Origin: Candidatus Aquidulcis sp. | GTDB taxonomy: Bacteria > Chloroflexota > Anaerolineae > UBA4142 | DNA: 64,000 bases | Direction: 5' to 3' | NCBI GenBank assembly: GCA_020723345.1 | Contig: DYJA01000007.1 | Coordinates: 62,001 to 126,000 of the forward strand | Shown here: in pieces, positions 4,169 through 43,500 of the stretch | Numbering within the stretch: the first letter of the stretch is position 1 | How the letters are laid out: every line of letters starts with the position of its first letter | Notes under the pieces: model-generated | What the model saw: the letters and a program-made list of their open reading frames with translations, nothing else | Told to the model about the DNA's origin: nothing | The model's database searches: none | Made by a program: the position numbers and the translations under genes

Positions 4169-5789
4169 GGTCCATATTCCTTTCTTCTGCAAAAACTTGT
4201 TTCATGTATAAAGCGGACGCGTCGCGTTTGCCGGCGACGAGTTTGTTCAACGCGGCGAGGTACGCTTTCGCGCTCGCGACGATAATGTCCGTGTCCGCGC
4301 CGTGACCGCCCAGCGTGCGCGGTTCCGCTTCGTGCGACTGCAAACGCACGCTCACTTCGCCGAGCGCGTCGATCCCTTCGGTGACCGCGTGGATGCTGAA
4401 TTCGAGCAGCGTGTTTTCCGCTTGCACGATCGCGTCGATTGCTTTGTACGTCGCGTCGACCGGCCCCGTGCCGACTGCCGCATGGACGATGCTCTGTCCC
4501 TCGGGCCCACGGAGGCGCACCGTCGCGGTTGGCATGCCGTGACGACCGCACGTCACTTGAATATCTTCGAGCGCGAAGATTTCGGGCGGCTGATAAAATT
4601 CGTCGGCGATGAGCGCGGCAAGGTCGGCGTCCGCCACGACTTTTTTCTTGTCGGCTAATTCCTTAAAGCGCTGGAACGCTTGATTCAGATCGGCTTCGTT
4701 CAGCTGATAACCAAGTTCGCCGAGACGAACCTGGAACGCATGTCGTCCCGAATGTTTGCCGAGCACCAAATGCGATTGCGCGACGCCGACGGTTTCGGGG
4801 CGCATGATTTCGTACGTGAGATGATGTTTCAACATGCCGTCTTGATGGATGCCGGCTTCGTGCGCGAACGCATTCGCGCCGACAATCGCTTTGTTCGGCT
4901 GCACCGGAATGCCGGTGTAATTCGAAACGAGGCGACTCGTGCGCGCGATTTGCGTCGTGTCGATGCCGGTCGTCAATCCGAACAAGGCGTGGCGCGTTTG
5001 CAGCGCCATCACAACTTCTTCCAGCGACGTGTTGCCCGCGCGCTCGCCGATGCCGTTGACGGTGACCTCGGCTTGGCGCGCGCCCGCGCGAATCGCGGAC
5101 AGCGTGTTTGCGGTCGCGAGACCCAGGTCGTTGTGACAGTGTACCGAAATGACGACGCGTGCCGCGCCGGGCGTGTGCTTGATGATCCCCGCGACCAGCG
5201 CGCCGAATTCCTCCGGCGTCGTGTAGCCGACGGTATCCGGGATGTTCAGCGTCGTCGCGCCGGATTGAATCGCGACGTCGAGCACGCGATAGAGAAATTC
5301 GGGATCGGAGCGTCCCGCGTCTTCCGGCGAAAACTCGATGTCGTCGCAATAATGTTTCGCGTACGCGACCATTTCGCGAACGCGCTGGACGACTTGGTCG
5401 CGCGTCATTTTCAATTTGTGTTCGAGGTGAATGTCCGAGGTCGCGAGAAAGGTGTGGATGCGCGGATGCGCGGCGTGACGAACGGCTTCCCACGCGGCAT
5501 CAATGTCTTTGACATTCGCGCGCGCCAGACCGGCGATGATCGGAACGCGCTTGCCCCTTCGGCTTTGCTCAGGGCAGGCGTCGCGCGCGTTGCCGACTTC
5601 AATGGCGATGCGGCGCACGGCGTCCATGTCGCCGGGCGACGTGATTGGAAATCCGGCTTCGATCACGTCCACGCCGAGCCGCGCGAGTTGCCGCGCGATT
5701 TCCAATTTCTCAACCGCGTCCAGCGACGCGCCGGGTGATTGCTCGCCGTCGCGTAAAGTCGTGTCAAAAATGCGAACATAGTTGTCCAT
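4152..5789 (-). CDS. leuA: 2-isopropylmalate synthase
   Basis: A 545-aa enzyme condensing 2-oxoisovalerate with acetyl-CoA, the first committed leucine step. The ATG at 5789 is chosen because GGAGAAC sits at ideal spacing and the family start [20 protein letters not shown] follows. [16 protein letters not shown] (metal ligands), [19 protein letters not shown] and [16 protein letters not shown] are clear, and the C-terminal allosteric leucine-binding domain is present ([19 protein letters not shown] region to [14 protein letters not shown]). An unusual insert, ACPEQSRRG near residue 75, matches a dispersed repeat (5554-5579) inserted in frame in the catalytic barrel ahead of the PIIAGLARA strand. 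The 3' end overlaps the 78-aa ORF. Confidence 0.95.
5554..5579. repeat. dispersed CCTGAGC-type repeat inserted in frame in leuA
   Basis: The sequence CTTCGGCTTTGCTCAGGGC lies inside leuA and encodes the extra residues CPEQSRRG. Related copies are at 11021-11060 (intergenic), 12491-12512 (in pucR) and, more diverged, 52926-52957 (GNAT/asnB junction). The shared core is CCTGAGC(A/G)AAG followed within a few bases by (T/C)CGAAGG in one orientation or the other. Confidence 0.7.
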
Positions 5790-9315: not shown

Positions 9316-10986
9316 TCACAGGTCTCTCAACACCGCGCCGGTACTCGCGCTCGTCACCATGCTCGCGTAGCGCCGCAGCCATTTGCTTTTGATGTCGCGT
9401 TGCTTGGGCGGATTTGCCGCGAGCCGCGCGCGAATTTCGGCGTCGCTCAGTTCAACGTCCAGCCGGTTTTTTGGCAGGTCGATGGAAATCATGTCGCCAT
9501 TTTGCAGCGCGGCAATCGGTCCACCCGCCGCCGCTTCCGGCGAAACGTGACCGATGCACGCGCCGCGCGTGCCGCCGCTGAATCGTCCGTCGGTGATGAG
9601 CGCGACTTGATCGCCGAGTCCCATGCCCATAATCGCCGAAGTCGGCGACAACATTTCTTGCATCCCCGGTCCGCCGCGCGGTCCTTCGTACCGCACGACG
9701 ACGACTTGTCCCGGTTTCACTTCGCCAGCGAGAATGCCGCGCATCGTCTCTTCTTCCGATTCGTAAATGTGCGCGGGTCCGCGGAACGTTTGCATCGCCG
9801 CGCTGACGCCGCCGGTTTTGACGACCGCGCCGTCGGGCGCGAGATTGCCAAACAGAATCGCAAGTCCGCCGGTCGCGCGGTGCGCGTTGTCGCGCGCGCG
9901 GATCACTTCGCGATCTTGCACGCGCGCGGTCGCGAGATTTTCGCGCATCGTTTTGCCGGTGACCGTGACGCGATCCAGGTGCAGCGTGTTGCCATTTGCC
10001 GCGATCTCGGAAAGGATCGCGGGGATGCCGCCCGCGCGATGCACGTCTTCGATGTGCCATTGCCCGGCGGGCGACACTTTGCAAATGTGCGGCACCTTCG
10101 CCGCCAATTCGTTTATTCGTTGTAACGGATAATCAATCCCGCCCTCACGCGCAATCGCCAAGGCGTGAAGTACCGTATTCGTTGACCCGCCCATTGCCAT
10201 GTCGAGCGCGAACGCGTCGTCAATCACGTCGGCGGTAACGATTTGGCGCGGCGTGAGATTCATTTCGATCAGGCGCATGATTTGCGCGGCGGCAGTGCGC
10301 GCGAGCGCAGCGCGCTCTTCGCTTTCGGCGAGCGCGGTGCCGTTGTACGGCAGCGCGAGCCCGAGCGCTTCCATCAAGCAGTTCATCGAGTTCGCGGTGA
10401 ACAAGCCGGAGCACGAGCCGCACGACGGGCACGCGTAATCTTCGAGTTCTTTCAACTGCGCCGCGTCCATTTTGCCGGCTTGGTACGCGCCGACGCCTTC
10501 AAAGACGCTGATCAGATCGACGACTTTGCCTTGCGGCGTGCGTCCTGCCGCCATCGCTCCACCCGAAACAAAAATGGTCGGGATGTCGAGGCGCATCGCC
10601 GCCATCAACATACCCGGACCAATTTTGTCGCAATTCGGAATACATACCATCGCGTCGAAACAATGCGCGGTCACCATCGTTTCGACGCAATCGGCAATCA
10701 GTTCGCGCGACGGCAGCGAGAACTTCATCCCCGCGTGACCCATCGCGATGCCGTCGTCCACGCCAATCGTGTTGAATTCGAACGGCACGCCGCCCGCGTC
10801 GCGTACGGCTTGCTTGACGAGCGCGCCAAATTTTTGCAAGTGCGCGTGTCCGGGCACGATGTCGACGTACGAATTGACAATCGCGACGAACGGCTTGCCG
10901 AAATCGGCATCGGTGACGCCGACGGCTTTGAGCAAACTGCGATGCGGTGCGCGTTCAAAGCCGCGCGTGATTTGATCGGAACGCAT
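9316..10986 (-). CDS. ilvD: dihydroxy-acid dehydratase
   Basis: A 556-aa Fe-S dehydratase that makes the 2-oxo acids for valine/leucine and isoleucine. Cluster and active-site cysteines are visible in [15 protein letters not shown] (about residue 120) and [20 protein letters not shown] (about residue 190), and the swivel domain carries [14 protein letters not shown] and [13 protein letters not shown]. The ATG at 10986 follows GAGGGAAA. It is the first structural gene of the operon and lies downstream of an attenuator-like leader (11131-11406), so its expression is probably tied to branched-chain amino acid supply. Confidence 0.96.
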
Positions 10987-11003
10987 TTTCCCTCGTCATG
11001 TCT

Positions 11004-11119
11004 CGTCATTTCGAGGAGCGCCCTGAGCGAAGCAGCGCCTTTCGCTGCGAAGTCGAAGGGTTGCGACGAGAAATCTCGGTGTGGCAGTACTGAGATTTCT
11101 CGCTCCGCTCGAAATGACG
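11004..11119. mobile_element. MITE-like element between the ilv leader and ilvD
   Basis: Bounded by inverted ends CGTCATTTCGAG (11004-11015) and CTCGAAATGACG (11108-11119). Inside is a CCTGAGC/GTCGAAGGG repeat (11021-11060) and a 10-bp hairpin GAGAAATCTC/GAGATTTCTC around 11069-11102. It carries no gene. It lies in the 5' untranslated part of ilvD, between the attenuator terminator and the start codon, and resembles a second element at 57210-57436. Confidence 0.6.
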
Positions 11120-11130
11120 GACAGAAAATA

Positions 11131-11157
11131 AAAACCGCCTGAGGTTCAGGCGGTTTT
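11131..11157 (-). terminator. intrinsic terminator of the ilv leader (attenuator)
   Basis: A 12-bp stem AAAACCGCCTGA/TCAGGCGGTTTT with a 3-nt loop, followed on the minus strand by T residues. It lies 18 nt past the stop codon of the leader ORF and 145 nt before ilvD. The CGCCTG of its 5' arm (11147-11152) is exactly complementary to CAGGCG in the leader ORF (11219-11224), which would form a competing antiterminator. It could alternatively just end transcripts from upstream, but its place inside the ilvD leader favours attenuation. Confidence 0.8.
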
Positions 11158-11175
11158 TGTCAGTCGTCTTGTGAC

Positions 11176-11286
11176 CTAGTGTCGAGCGCGTGCCTCGACT
11201 TTCGCCCAAACCCAATTACGCCTGTTGCTAAGGATGACAACAAGCGAAATAAGGATGACGATAATCGAGACGCTAATCAGTGACAT
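11176..11286 (-). CDS. ilv operon leader peptide, 36 aa (attenuator control peptide)
   Basis: ATG at 11286, TAG at 11178-11176. Residues 3-19 are LISVSIIVILISLVVIL: 14 of 17 are Ile, Val or Leu and the rest Ser. This mirrors the control peptides of enterobacterial ilv operons, where ribosome stalling at these codons prevents the terminator. The following codons 21-23 contain CAGGCG, complementary to the terminator 5' arm. It lies between a promoter (11378-11406) and the terminator (11131-11157). The ribosome site is weak and the frame is open upstream to a GTG at 11400, so the start is not certain. A small single-pass membrane protein is the alternative reading, but position and codon content favour a leader. 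Confidence 0.72.
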   Translation of the reverse strand: MSLISVSIIVILISLVVILSNRRNWVWAKVEARARH

Positions 11287-11377
11287 GATAGTTGTGCCAG
11301 ATAGAAAAATTCTCCGTCGCGATTCAGCGATGAAGCGCGCGGAGCAGTTAATCGCTTTATTCGATTTTGCAATGGAT

Positions 11378-11406
11378 ATTATAACCGTCCGGCGGGGCAC
11401 CGTCTA
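11378..11406 (-). promoter_or_regulatory. sigma70-type promoter for the ilv-leu operon
   Basis: Minus-strand -10 box TATAAT (11383-11378) and a 4/6 match -35 TAGACG (11406-11401) with 17-nt spacing. The expected start near 11371 leaves about 85 nt before the leader peptide ATG. A better -35 (TTGACC) lies 24 nt from the -10, too far. Reading by eye only. Confidence 0.55.
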
Positions 11407-11458
11407 CGGTCAAGTTGCGAGAACGCGGTGGGGCGGTGGTTGTGCAAGATGTACAAAT

Positions 11459-11530
11459 GCAGTGTTCAGTATTCAGTATTCAGTTGAGAGACGTGACCGA
11501 AAACTGAAAACTGAATACTGGATGCTGATT
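11459..11530. repeat. microrepeat array (GTGTTCAGTATTCAGT words) at the pucR stop codon
   Basis: Repeated CAGTATTCAG words on the left and inverted ACTGAAAACTGAATACTG words on the right can form an imperfect hairpin ending at the pucR stop codon. It is of the same family as the array at 50-160. It may serve as a weak terminator or mRNA 3' structure for pucR. Confidence 0.65.
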
Positions 11531-13163
11531 ACTGCTCGTCGCGCGCGAGCAACAAACGATGCGCGCGGAGCGCGAGTTCGATGCTGAGTCGCGTTTCCGG
11601 ATTGTCGAGATCGAGTCCGCTGATTTCGCGGATGCGCTCCATTCGATAGAGCAGCGTGTTGCGATGCACGAACAGCGCTTCGGCGGTTTGGCTGAGATTG
11701 CCTTTGTGCGCGAAATACGACGTGAGCGTTTCGATCAAATCGGTGCCTTGCGTGCGATCATATTCGACGAGCGTGCCGATAATTTCCTGACGAAACGCGG
11801 CAAGTTCGGGATGATGTTCCAAGAGAAACAGCAGCCGGTACACGTTCAGTTCGCCAAAGTACAGCGGATTGGGATCGGCGAGGCGGCGCGCCATGGATAA
11901 CGCCTGCCGCGCTTCGCGGTACGAATCACGCAAATCGATCAGCGCGTCCGCCGCGCGCCCGATGCCGATGGCGAGCGGATCGTTGGCGTACTCGGCGCTG
12001 GCTTGGCGGCGAATGTTTTCGGCGATCACGCGCGCGCCCTCGATGCCTTGGCGCGGATCCAGCCGCACGAAAACGATCACTTCATCGTCGCGCGTGTGAA
12101 CCAGAATATCCGCGCGCGTCAGTCCGTGAATGATCGTCTCCAGTCGCCGGTACGACGGATGTTCCTTCTTCGCCCAATCGGCGACGACGACTGCGTGTTT
12201 GCCGTCGGGATTGTACTTGTCGCGTTTCGCCCAACGCGTCGCTTCATCCGGCGAAAGACTGCCGGCGAGCAGCCCTTCGACGAAACCGCCGCGCACGCGC
12301 TTTTCCGCTTCGCTCACCGCTTTGGCTTTTGCCATTTCGAGCGCGCACGCCGCCGCGCCTTGTTCCGCCATGCTCCGGTCGAATTGTTCGAGCGCGTCGC
12401 GTTCCGCGATCAGCGAGAGGTAACCGCGCGCCATGCCTTTCGCCACGATAGGGACGATCACGCGCGTGCGGTTTTCTTTCGGCACGCGTACATCCTGAGC
12501 AAAGTCGAAGGATTGTTCCACAATGCGTCGATTTTGCGCGGCGCGTTTCCGGTCGCGCAATTCTTCCGGCACATTGCCGGACGCCGTGACCCATTCTTCG
12601 ACGATTGTTCGCGCGCTGGCATCCTCCGGCGCGAACCACGCGGCGATGATGTTCAATCGCTTGTCCTGAATCAACACCGTCTTGCCGATGGTGCGACCGA
12701 TCACCGCCGCCATCGCTTCCAGTCCGGCATTCTCGGCGGACAACAAGGTGAGGTGCTGATACAATTGCGTCGCGCGCTGTTCTACTGCCGCGTCGCGATC
12801 CAGAACGAACGCGAGCGCGAGTCGTTCGATCTGGCGCAGATTCGCGGACGCCGGCAAGACGACCAGCGGCAATTGCGCTTGCTGCGCGGCTTCGACGAGC
12901 GCGGGGGCTGGCTCGGCGACGAGCGCGATACCGGCGATGCCGGTTTGCGCGAGGCGCGCGAATTGCCGCGCCAGGTCGTTGGGATAAGGCGGGAGGAGAA
13001 ACGCAAAATCGCCGGTGTCGAGTCGCGTCAAATCCTGCGCGGCGGTGGAAACGACCCAGGTGACCGGATGATCCAGCAAACCGTGATCGACCAGCACGCG
13101 CGTCTCGATCGGCAGCGCGCGTTTGACAAGTTCTTGCAGCGTAGGCGTTTGAATGTCGGTCAT
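11529..13163 (-). CDS. PucR-family transcriptional regulator
   Basis: About 544 aa. The N-terminal region (LQELVKRALPIETRVLV ... LDHPVTWVVS) is the PucR N-terminal sensor domain; a GAF-like middle (about 165-300) is followed by the CdaR/PucR-type GGDEF-like region with AIGIGRAADALIDLRDSYREA; the C-terminus (NLSQTAEALFVHRNTLLYRM) is the PucR HTH_30 DNA-binding helix-turn-helix. Relatives control purine catabolism and other nitrogen or amino-acid pathways; the target here is unknown. The ATG at 13163 (MTDIQTPTLQ) is chosen over upstream codons because an intrinsic terminator-like hairpin occupies 13172-13203. SFDFAQDVR around residue 215 comes from a dispersed repeat. It stands alone between the ilv leader and the HARE-HTH gene. 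Confidence 0.85.
   Translation of the reverse strand: MTDIQTPTLQELVKRALPIETRVLVDHGLLDHPVTWVVSTAAQDLTRLDTGDFAFLLPPYPNDLARQFARLAQTGIAGIALVAEPAPALVEAAQQAQLPLVVLPASANLRQIERLALAFVLDRDAAVEQRATQLYQHLTLLSAENAGLEAMAAVIGRTIGKTVLIQDKRLNIIAAWFAPEDASARTIVEEWVTASGNVPEELRDRKRAAQNRRIVEQSFDFAQDVRVPKENRTRVIVPIVAKGMARGYLSLIAERDALEQFDRSMAEQGAAACALEMAKAKAVSEAEKRVRGGFVEGLLAGSLSPDEATRWAKRDKYNPDGKHAVVVADWAKKEHPSYRRLETIIHGLTRADILVHTRDDEVIVFVRLDPRQGIEGARVIAENIRRQASAEYANDPLAIGIGRAADALIDLRDSYREARQALSMARRLADPNPLYFGELNVYRLLFLLEHHPELAAFRQEIIGTLVEYDRTQGTDLIETLTSYFAHKGNLSQTAEALFVHRNTLLYRMERIREISGLDLDNPETRLSIELALRAHRLLLARDEQ
12491..12512. repeat. dispersed CCTGAGCAAAG repeat inserted in frame in pucR
   Basis: CATCCTGAGCAAAGTCGAAG reads on the minus strand as SFDFAQD within PucR, between the sensor and GAF-like parts. 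The same core occurs in leuA (5554-5579) and at 11021-11060. Confidence 0.65.
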
Positions 13164-40522: not shown

Positions 40523-43500
40523 TCAAGAGGGAAGAAAGACAAACCCACAGAATGCTTGGGTCCGCATCTTGATTCCACACAGACGATATTTGCGCCACTC
40601 GAAAACGCGCACCGGCACGTCCGCCTCGCGCACGAACACGCGCAGCCAAAAGCGCCCGCGATCCGAATCGCGAATCGCCGGAAAGGTCACGCGCGCCGGC
40701 GCGACGTCGTTCACTTGGCTGAGCGGGATGACGGCTTGCGCCACAATCGCGTTTTCAGGTGACACGATTTCAACGCCGAGTGTTCCGGTCGCCGATGGAA
40801 AATCAAGAATCGGCGCAAGGAGAACGCCGGCGAGGTTCGCGCGCCCAAGTTCGAGCGGATAGTACAGGAACGGGACGTGTTGTAGATTCTCGCTCGGCTG
40901 CAAGAGATAGCCGGTGAGATCGGGACCGAACAAGAGCGTGTCGTCTTTGAGTTGTTGAAACGGCTCGCCGACGGCGTTCCACACATTCACGCGATTCCGC
41001 AGGCGTTCGATGATGCGCGCGATGCGGCGCTCGCGAAACGCGCCTAGTTCGCGCGCGGCGGTTTTGCCTTTCACAACCGCGCGCGCCAATTCCGACTCGT
41101 GCGCCTGGATTACGTGCTGCGCCTGCTCCAGTTTTTGCTCGTGGGCAAACGCGGCAGCGCGGCTTTGTTGGAGTTGACCGTCGCGGTGCGCCAACGACTG
41201 GCGCGTCGTGACGAGTTCCGCTTCACGCGCGGTGAGCGCGGCTTGCGTTTGCGCGAGTTCTGCTTCGCGCGCGGTCAGCGCGGACTGCATCCGCGCGAGT
41301 TCCGCTTCGCGCGCGGTGAGCGCGGACTGCGTCTGCGCGAGTTCTGTCTCACGTGCGGTGAGCGCGGACTGCGTTTGCGCGAGTTCTGCTTCGCGTGCGC
41401 TGAGCGCGGTTTGTGTTTGCGCGAGTTCTGCTTCGCGTGCGCTGAGCGCGGTTTGTGTTTGCGCGAGTTCCGCTTCGCGCGCGGTGAGCGCGGTTTGTGT
41501 TTGCGCGAGTTCTGCTTCGCGCGCGGTGAGCGCGGACTGCGTTTGCGCGAGTTCTGCTTCGCGCGCGGTCAGCGTGGCTTGCGTTTGTGCGAGTTCCGCT
41601 TCGCGTGCGGTCAGCGCGGCTTGGGCTTGTGCGAGTTCCGCTTCGCGCGCGGCGAGCGCGGTTCGCGCTTGCGCTTCCGCTTGGACGAGTTGTTCTTCTA
41701 ACCGCCGAATTTTCACGTACGGCGGATCATAGTATTCGATCCGTTGCGCCAGTTCTTTCATTTCCGCCTCGCTTATCGGTTCTTTGACGACAATCAAATG
41801 GTATACAATGACATCGCAGACATCCAGGTATTTTTTGCGCGCCGCGCGCTGTTCCTCGGGCGGCAAGTAGCGGTATTCTGGAAAGTAGAAAAACTCCATC
41901 CGCAAACAGCGCAAATCCATTCCGGGATCGCTATTGTCACTCGCGCCCAGCGCCCACCTGTCGGCGTGGGGGTGCCAATACTCGCGCGGGTCAATCAATG
42001 TTTGATCGCTTGTCGTCCAGAAACGCGGCGTGTGCTCGTTGAACGCTTGGATATGGTACGGATTCGCCGCGTTGATCGCCTGTGCGGAATACGGCGCGAC
42101 GATGCACACCTGCGCGCCGTGCCGGCAGACGCGGTAGATTTCTCGCATTGTCGCGGTCAAATCATTCACGTGTTCGAGCGCGTGGCTGGCAAAAACAAGG
42201 GCGAACGAATTGTCTGGGAAAGGTAGCCCTCCATTCAGATCTGCGATGATGTCCACGCCGGAGAGTGCGAAACGATCAAGCCCAATAAAGCCGGGTGACT
42301 TGAGCGCGCCACAGCCAAGATCGAGCGCGGCGATGTTTGGAATTTTTTTGAGTAAATCAATGGAATGTTCTGACTCCGGAGATTTTGGGGGAAAACCTGA
42401 TGGAACGACGAAGAATTCGCCGGCTGGGTCGATCTTCTTCCACAATGCGCTTGTGGCTTCGGCAATCTGCTCTGCTTCAGATTGGGTTAGAAGCGTTTTC
42501 CAACGTCCAACGCTCTCCCGACGAATCCGGATCGTGGTGCGAATCTGGGGATCTTCAAAACTTGTTTGATGATTAGTCTGATTGAATTCCAGTTGCGCTG
42601 GCTCAAAGGATTCACCTAGCCAATACATCAAACGGCGCAAGGCTGCCTCGGGCTGATTAACCAATTCTTCGTAGATAACCTGGTAGTAACGATTGGGATG
42701 CTTGGAAGCGAATTCAAGCGCAGATCGTAAATTGCGCTGATACAAGGTGATTTGTCCGGAAAGATCGTCCGGAATGGCATGATTAAATTTCGCATCTTTG
42801 ATCGAAGCAATGGTATCAAGTGGATTACGGACAACATGCACAAACACCCAATCATCACCAAGCAGCCGCTGCCACGCTCTCCAGAATAGCGAATTATCTG
42901 GGTTCTTGTCCGCCCAGCGCGGCTTGTTCGCATGTTGGGCAGCACGTTCATGGATCGGGATAAACGTTTGCTCCAAGAGGTCGAGTAATTCGCCTTCGTC
43001 CTGCACCGAGCGCGCCGAAGCCATAAAGCGCGCAAAGTCGATTGGATCGTTAAGAAAGATGCTATAAAAATCGGCGAAGAATTCCACTTCGGGTCCGCGA
43101 AAGATTCGAGAATTAGCACTCAGAATTCGTTGCACAAGTGATGTCCCAGACCGATGACATCCACCAACGATGATTGGTGCGTTTTGGCGTCTTTGCAATA
43201 TGCCGTTCGCTTCCTCGACGATTTTGGCGTAATACTCATACGGCTGAGGATTCGATGCGTCGAGTCGATCATCGGACATGTACAGACGCATCTCTTTCTC
43301 GCTTGGCAAGCGGATTAAATCAGGAGTGATTTGAGCACGCCAGCTGTGCATTCCGCCTGCCAATTCCTGCACGTCGAACGCCTTGCGGACATATTTGGAA
43401 ATCGCATGTGGCACACTCAAGAACTGATAGTGCCGCATTGGAAACCTGTGGGGATAGATTCTCGCGTTCGGAAATTGCACTTGATGCCCAGCAGTGGATG

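Follow-up and report, generated by a model that had tools for sequence, protein, structure and literature searches.

On the minus strand of the window, the 64,000-nucleotide stretch of DNA analyzed, which belongs to a genome of 6.3 Mb, five genes of branched-chain amino acid synthesis follow each other in the order ilvD-ilvB-ilvN-ilvC-leuA. The first gene of the operon, ilvD, spans positions 10986-9316, and its closest relatives reside in metagenome-assembled genomes of Anaerolineae/Anaerolineales. It is followed by ilvB (acetolactate synthase large subunit, 9285-7546), ilvN (about 7546-7010, between ilvB and ilvC), ilvC (6939-5872) and a leuA-like gene of the 2-isopropylmalate synthase family (5822-4152; PF00682 match at window positions 4926-5777, G000:C125:66926-67777), ilvB and ilvC having been read from the sequence. 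All features described below lie upstream of ilvD on the same strand, unless stated otherwise.

A promoter-like site, TAGACG-N17-TATAAT (11406-11378), matches the consensus at 10 out of 12 positions, includes the TATAAT already marked as a promoter in the initial annotation, and is the only such site in the 10900-11600 interval; a TAGACR-N17-TATAMT-like element is kept in the related loci L003-L006. Further upstream, at about 11453-11433, is a palindrome of the type TTGTGCA-n3-TGCACAA, a possible operator, found at the same place in L003-L006. The gene just upstream of the leader (13289-11529) encodes a PucR-type regulator with PucR, GGDEF_2 and HTH_30 domains and a weak, below-cut-off match to the CodY GAF-like domain; its product could regulate the ilv promoter.

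Downstream of the promoter, a short ORF of 36 codons plus TAG (ATG 11286 to TAG 11176), coding for MSLISVSIIVILISLVVILSNRRNWVWAKVEARARH, is rich in codons for the end products of the pathway. Codons 3-19 (11280-11230) specify 14 Ile, Val or Leu and 3 Ser residues, precisely as noted earlier. A clear Shine-Dalgarno sequence is missing ahead of the ATG in the window, and is present in L004 and L006. Between the leader ORF and ilvD lies an intrinsic terminator (11158-11130); the initial annotation had recognized it with a stem of 12 bp, which is in fact a stem of 13 bp, followed by ATTTTCT. The RNA fold of the leader is far more stable than expected by chance (z = -5.5 vs. shuffled sequences). 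It includes a hairpin inside the codon run (P1, 11246-11219), in which CGCTTGTTG (11246-11238) pairs with CAACAGGCG (11227-11219), and, in the family of the window only, a GTCGAG...CTCGAC hairpin ahead of the leader stop (11199-11181).

Additional elements surround the leader, two of which, a hairpin in the 5'-UTR and a multi-copy repeat, had escaped the initial annotation. The hairpin (11344-11304) is terminator-like, being made up by CTCCGCGCG...CGCGACGGAG followed by AATTTTTC; similar ones are found in L003/L112, L005/L116 and L113, and are absent in L004, L006 and L115. The repeat, about 120 nt long with inverted ends, sits between the terminator and ilvD (11117-10998), and has 43 matches in the genome. 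In relatives a small ORF takes its place: L003, L004, L005, L006, L113 and L115, perhaps also L010, carry directly before ilvD an ORF that is about 47-75 codons long and closes with a conserved motif such as LTxCYND; the two examples searched had no match in Pfam. Elsewhere in the window, 42-nt direct repeats form an array of about 12-16 units (41086-41758).

The initial annotation had named the regions upstream of related ilvD genes, and frameshifts in homologous leaders, as places where its reading could be checked or refuted. Among 80 ilvD loci from public genomes, 78 have a short ORF followed by a terminator, the ORF holding 9 or more Ile, Val or Leu in 12 residues; the terminators of L025, L029 and L076, missed by the scan, were identified by eye, and that of L079 passed the detector. 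The two loci lacking leader and terminator are L081, labelled Acidobacteria, and L082, from Sphaerobacter. Nearly all of the Anaerolineae genomes analyzed share the attenuator. Outside this class, leaders of the same kind precede ilvD in families f26 (L093, L094, L096-L099) and f16 (L095, L100, L101). In the window's own family the leader is present at all 8 distinct loci with an orthologous ilvD, and missing in L119, L120 and L124, L119 and L120 each having an IlvD at only 66% identity. In the family alignment all gaps within the ORF are multiples of three, as expected for a translated ORF, and those behind the stop are not.

The combination of a short ORF rich in branched-chain residues and a terminator is also specific. 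The detector returned 106 matches in 1915 strand-kb, all of them before ilvD and none elsewhere. Scans of the surroundings of trpE-type (PF00425) and leuA-type (PF00682) genes, which covered the genomes in part, revealed no Trp-, His- or branched-chain leader followed by a terminator, the sole match being one trivial FFF. One leader type was also searched as an exact pattern in 301 genomes, which proved too strict to gauge the distribution.

The best duplex between the leader and the 5' arm of the terminator is formed by GGTTTGGGCG (11212-11203, region 2), located 7 nt downstream of CAGGCG, and CGCCTGAACC (11152-11143, region 3). Region 2 is the true switch strand, and pairs with the terminator 5' arm plus the loop. 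Duplexes of this type are more stable than those of shuffled sequences (mean z -3.25), with z < -2 in 79 of 96 distinct attenuators. When partners were swapped among 69 distinct units, own duplexes averaged -20.5 kcal/mol and swapped ones -15.0 +/- 0.34 kcal/mol, and none of 2000 permutations was as low as the observed mean. Across 71 distinct duplexes the helix covaries, loop bases unconstrained by the terminator stem included, and pair types vary with pairing preserved at nearly every position. At the first loop base T-A (50), G-C (10), A-T (8) and C-G (3) pairs were counted, and in L006 a G-C pair of the helix is swapped to C-G. The covariation table is built from predicted pairs, which makes the swap test the one with less bias. 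In tree-disjoint pairs, the own combination was better in 18 cases, tied in 13 and worse in 7 (p = 0.043, sign test). When only differences above 1 kcal/mol are counted, a cut-off set once the data were known, it was better in 14 and worse in none. The antiterminator helix and the terminator are mutually exclusive, and the former is conserved by compensatory change.

In 96 leaders, Ile/Val/Leu account for a fraction of 0.69-0.97 over codons -15 to -6, counted from region 2, and of 0.14 at codon -4. Region 2 starts at a median of 17 nt (quartiles 15-19) behind the last control codon, a distance which fits the front edge of a ribosome, and between the leader stop and the terminator the median distance is 23 nt. 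CTT makes up 45% of the Leu codons in the leaders vs. 9% in the operon genes; this excess would sharpen stalling if the cognate tRNA is scarce. Tails rich in Arg/Lys, such as VRVK, are frequent at the end of the leader peptides, and perhaps correspond to a purine-rich, unstructured spacer in the RNA.

The effect of a ribosome was modelled by imposing its footprint on the fold of RNA made through region 3. With folding at equilibrium, a fixed footprint and kinetics ignored, the pairing probability of regions 2 and 3 in the window is 0.85-0.90 with A-site codons 4-18, 0.00 with the ribosome at codons 24-34, 0.22 at the stop, and 0.00 with no ribosome, region 2 being paired upstream (0.65) in the latter state. 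A ribosome stalled at the control codons does not occlude the antiterminator strand in the model. Over the 96 attenuators, the mean predicted pairing is 0.68 in the stalled state, 0.27 with no ribosome and 0.26 near the stop, and stalling brings a gain of 0.37 in real leaders vs. 0.03 in shuffled leaders (p = 2e-10). The model behaves likewise on E. coli leuL, and reproduces ilvL only in part, and is consequently to be taken as a guide, not as a proof. At several loci (e.g. the second copy of L045, and L093-L098) antitermination is predicted also with no ribosome, so that the default state may differ there. The leader stop lies about 18 nt past region 2, and a ribosome resting on it would therefore mask region 2 incompletely. 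GTCGAG, located before the stop, has two alternative partners, CTCGAC beside it and CTCGAT upstream (11269-11264); a ribosome at the stop may favour the upstream pairing, and thereby hide region 2.

The initial annotation had assigned the role of antiterminator strand to CAGGCG (11224-11219), which is present as described, is complementary over exactly six bases to CGCCTG in the terminator 5' arm, and is kept in 6 of 8 family members. The hexamer by necessity also occurs in the 3' arm of the terminator itself, and when the leader is folded it is engaged elsewhere, as the 3' arm of P1, where its partner is CGCTTGTTG. It reads CAAGCG in L004/L114 and CACGCG in L113, although the terminator keeps CGCCTG in these loci; the change in L004 preserves P1, as a U-G pair becomes U-A. 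The predicted pairing of the hexamer with the terminator is 0.00 in all the ribosome states analyzed, and no equivalent of it turned up in the wider set, whose region 2 is GGTTNGG-like. A switch operated by CAGGCG is accordingly rejected as very improbable. The hydrophobic run, followed at many loci by Arg/Lys-rich residues, would also suit a functional small membrane protein with a hydrophobic helix and a basic tail, the terminator merely ending its short transcript. However, the best 12 residues of the leaders, selected for at least 9 Ile, Leu or Val, hold 10.3 of them on average, vs. 6.6 in the membrane-like stretches of the long ORFs of the window, the residues downstream of the run vary in keeping with the pairing of the RNA to the terminator, the position is always before ilvD, and the leader peptide has no match in Pfam. 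A small membrane protein is hence rejected as very unlikely.

Control of the terminator by a T-box or a riboswitch, in place of a translated leader, deserves consideration because some Chloroflexota do carry a T-box before ilvD (L102 and L105; the L108 match is just under the gathering score). Yet no Rfam family, leader RNAs and T-box included, reached the gathering threshold in the window or in six attenuator-bearing loci (L011, L012, L045, L093, L095, L099), there is little room for a T-box, and the frame of the ORF and its Ile/Val/Leu codons are conserved; this is the least probable of the alternatives.

The preferred reading is that the ilvD-ilvB-ilvN-ilvC-leuA operon is controlled by its leader, acting as a ribosome-mediated transcription attenuator; this is highly probable on the grounds of sequence comparison and folding models. 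Attenuation through Ile/Val/Leu codons, as put forward in the initial annotation, is strongly supported by the comparative evidence. The computed support comes from the ORF, the terminator, the covariation of regions 2 and 3, the spacing and the footprint-dependent fold; we infer that the ORF is translated, that termination and read-through take place in the cell, that they depend on tRNA, and that RNA polymerase pauses at P1. Transcription would start near 11371, and the leader ORF would be translated while being made. When charged Ile-, Val- and Leu-tRNAs are ample, the ribosome would pass the codon run and cover region 2 while regions 3 and 4 are made, the terminator (regions 3:4) would form, and the operon would be off. 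When any of the three is short, the ribosome would stall on the run with its front edge just before region 2, breaking the upstream fold in which this strand is otherwise hidden (region 1:2); the freed region 2 would pair with the terminator 5' arm and loop, and transcription would continue into the operon. If the leader is not translated, region 1:2 would hide region 2, making termination the default.

Two variants of this arrangement were observed. Two attenuators in series, both passing the detector, precede ilvD in L024, L044, L045, L051, L077 and L078, and serial attenuators were partly detected in L012, L016, L050, L054 and L074. In the IlvD tree they occupy three distinct positions, and the window itself lacks a second unit. 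Both ORFs are rich in Ile/Val/Leu and differ in their Ile/Val/Leu make-up, and the second hairpins of some pairs have a poor U-tract. Tentatively, and with the balance tipping slightly against it, a serial pair may work as a two-input switch, the operon being read only when both leader peptides stall. The other variant is the replacement of the leader peptide by the T-box, used instead in some deep-branching Chloroflexota; in this phylum, either type of control can be found before ilvD in place of the other.

The mechanism is known, and apparently undescribed in Chloroflexota. In line with the initial annotation, no published case of leader-peptide attenuation in this phylum was found in a literature search not covering Lopatovskaya et al. 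2010. According to a 2010 survey, leader-peptide systems were known from Proteobacteria and Actinobacteria only, and Firmicutes were added there (PMC2965389); a 2013 survey which included Chloroflexi suggested gamma-proteobacteria as a possible origin of the attenuators that control amino acid operons (PMC3766115). Dehalococcoides is known to have T-boxes (PMC2494555). The attenuator family is missing from Rfam. Leader-peptide attenuation requires a ribosome closely following RNA polymerase, and from its conservation across Anaerolineae and further families, coupling of transcription to translation is predicted in Chloroflexota. Bellilinea caldifistulae, Leptolinea tardivitalis, Ornatilinea apprima and Flexilinea flocculi are among the cultured carriers in which this prediction is testable.

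Several known systems resemble the one described here. The T-box leader (RF00230) takes over this role upstream of ilvD at the three Chloroflexota loci mentioned above, but senses uncharged tRNA directly, with no translation. Tandem attenuators of Salmonella mgtCBR (PMC3641672) similarly combine two short ORFs, one after the other, in a single leader; they respond to other signals, whereas both ORFs are Ile/Val/Leu-rich in Anaerolineae, where the arrangement is found in some relatives only. Leader peptides serve branched-chain synthesis also in Firmicutes, as the leucine-rich attenuator peptide of Staphylococcus aureus (PMC5794164) and the Listeria ilv attenuator (PMC5864092), systems which differ in phylum and in working beside CodY. 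Leader-peptide control of branched-chain genes outside Proteobacteria is likewise exerted by the uORF attenuator of Corynebacterium ilvBNC (PMC10272879, PMC11857589) and by other attenuators in Actinobacteria (PMC1262725); these belong to another phylum and to operons of different order. The E. coli ilvGMEDA (ilvL) and leu (leuL) leaders share with the Chloroflexota leaders a short ORF rich in Ile/Val/Leu or in Leu codons, a terminator about 20 nt behind the leader stop, and a strand behind the codon run that pairs alternatively with the terminator 5' arm. No sequence relation to them was seen, and, unlike in E. coli, the Chloroflexota operon starts with ilvD, and the antiterminator reaches into the terminator loop, its strand being located inside the leader ORF.
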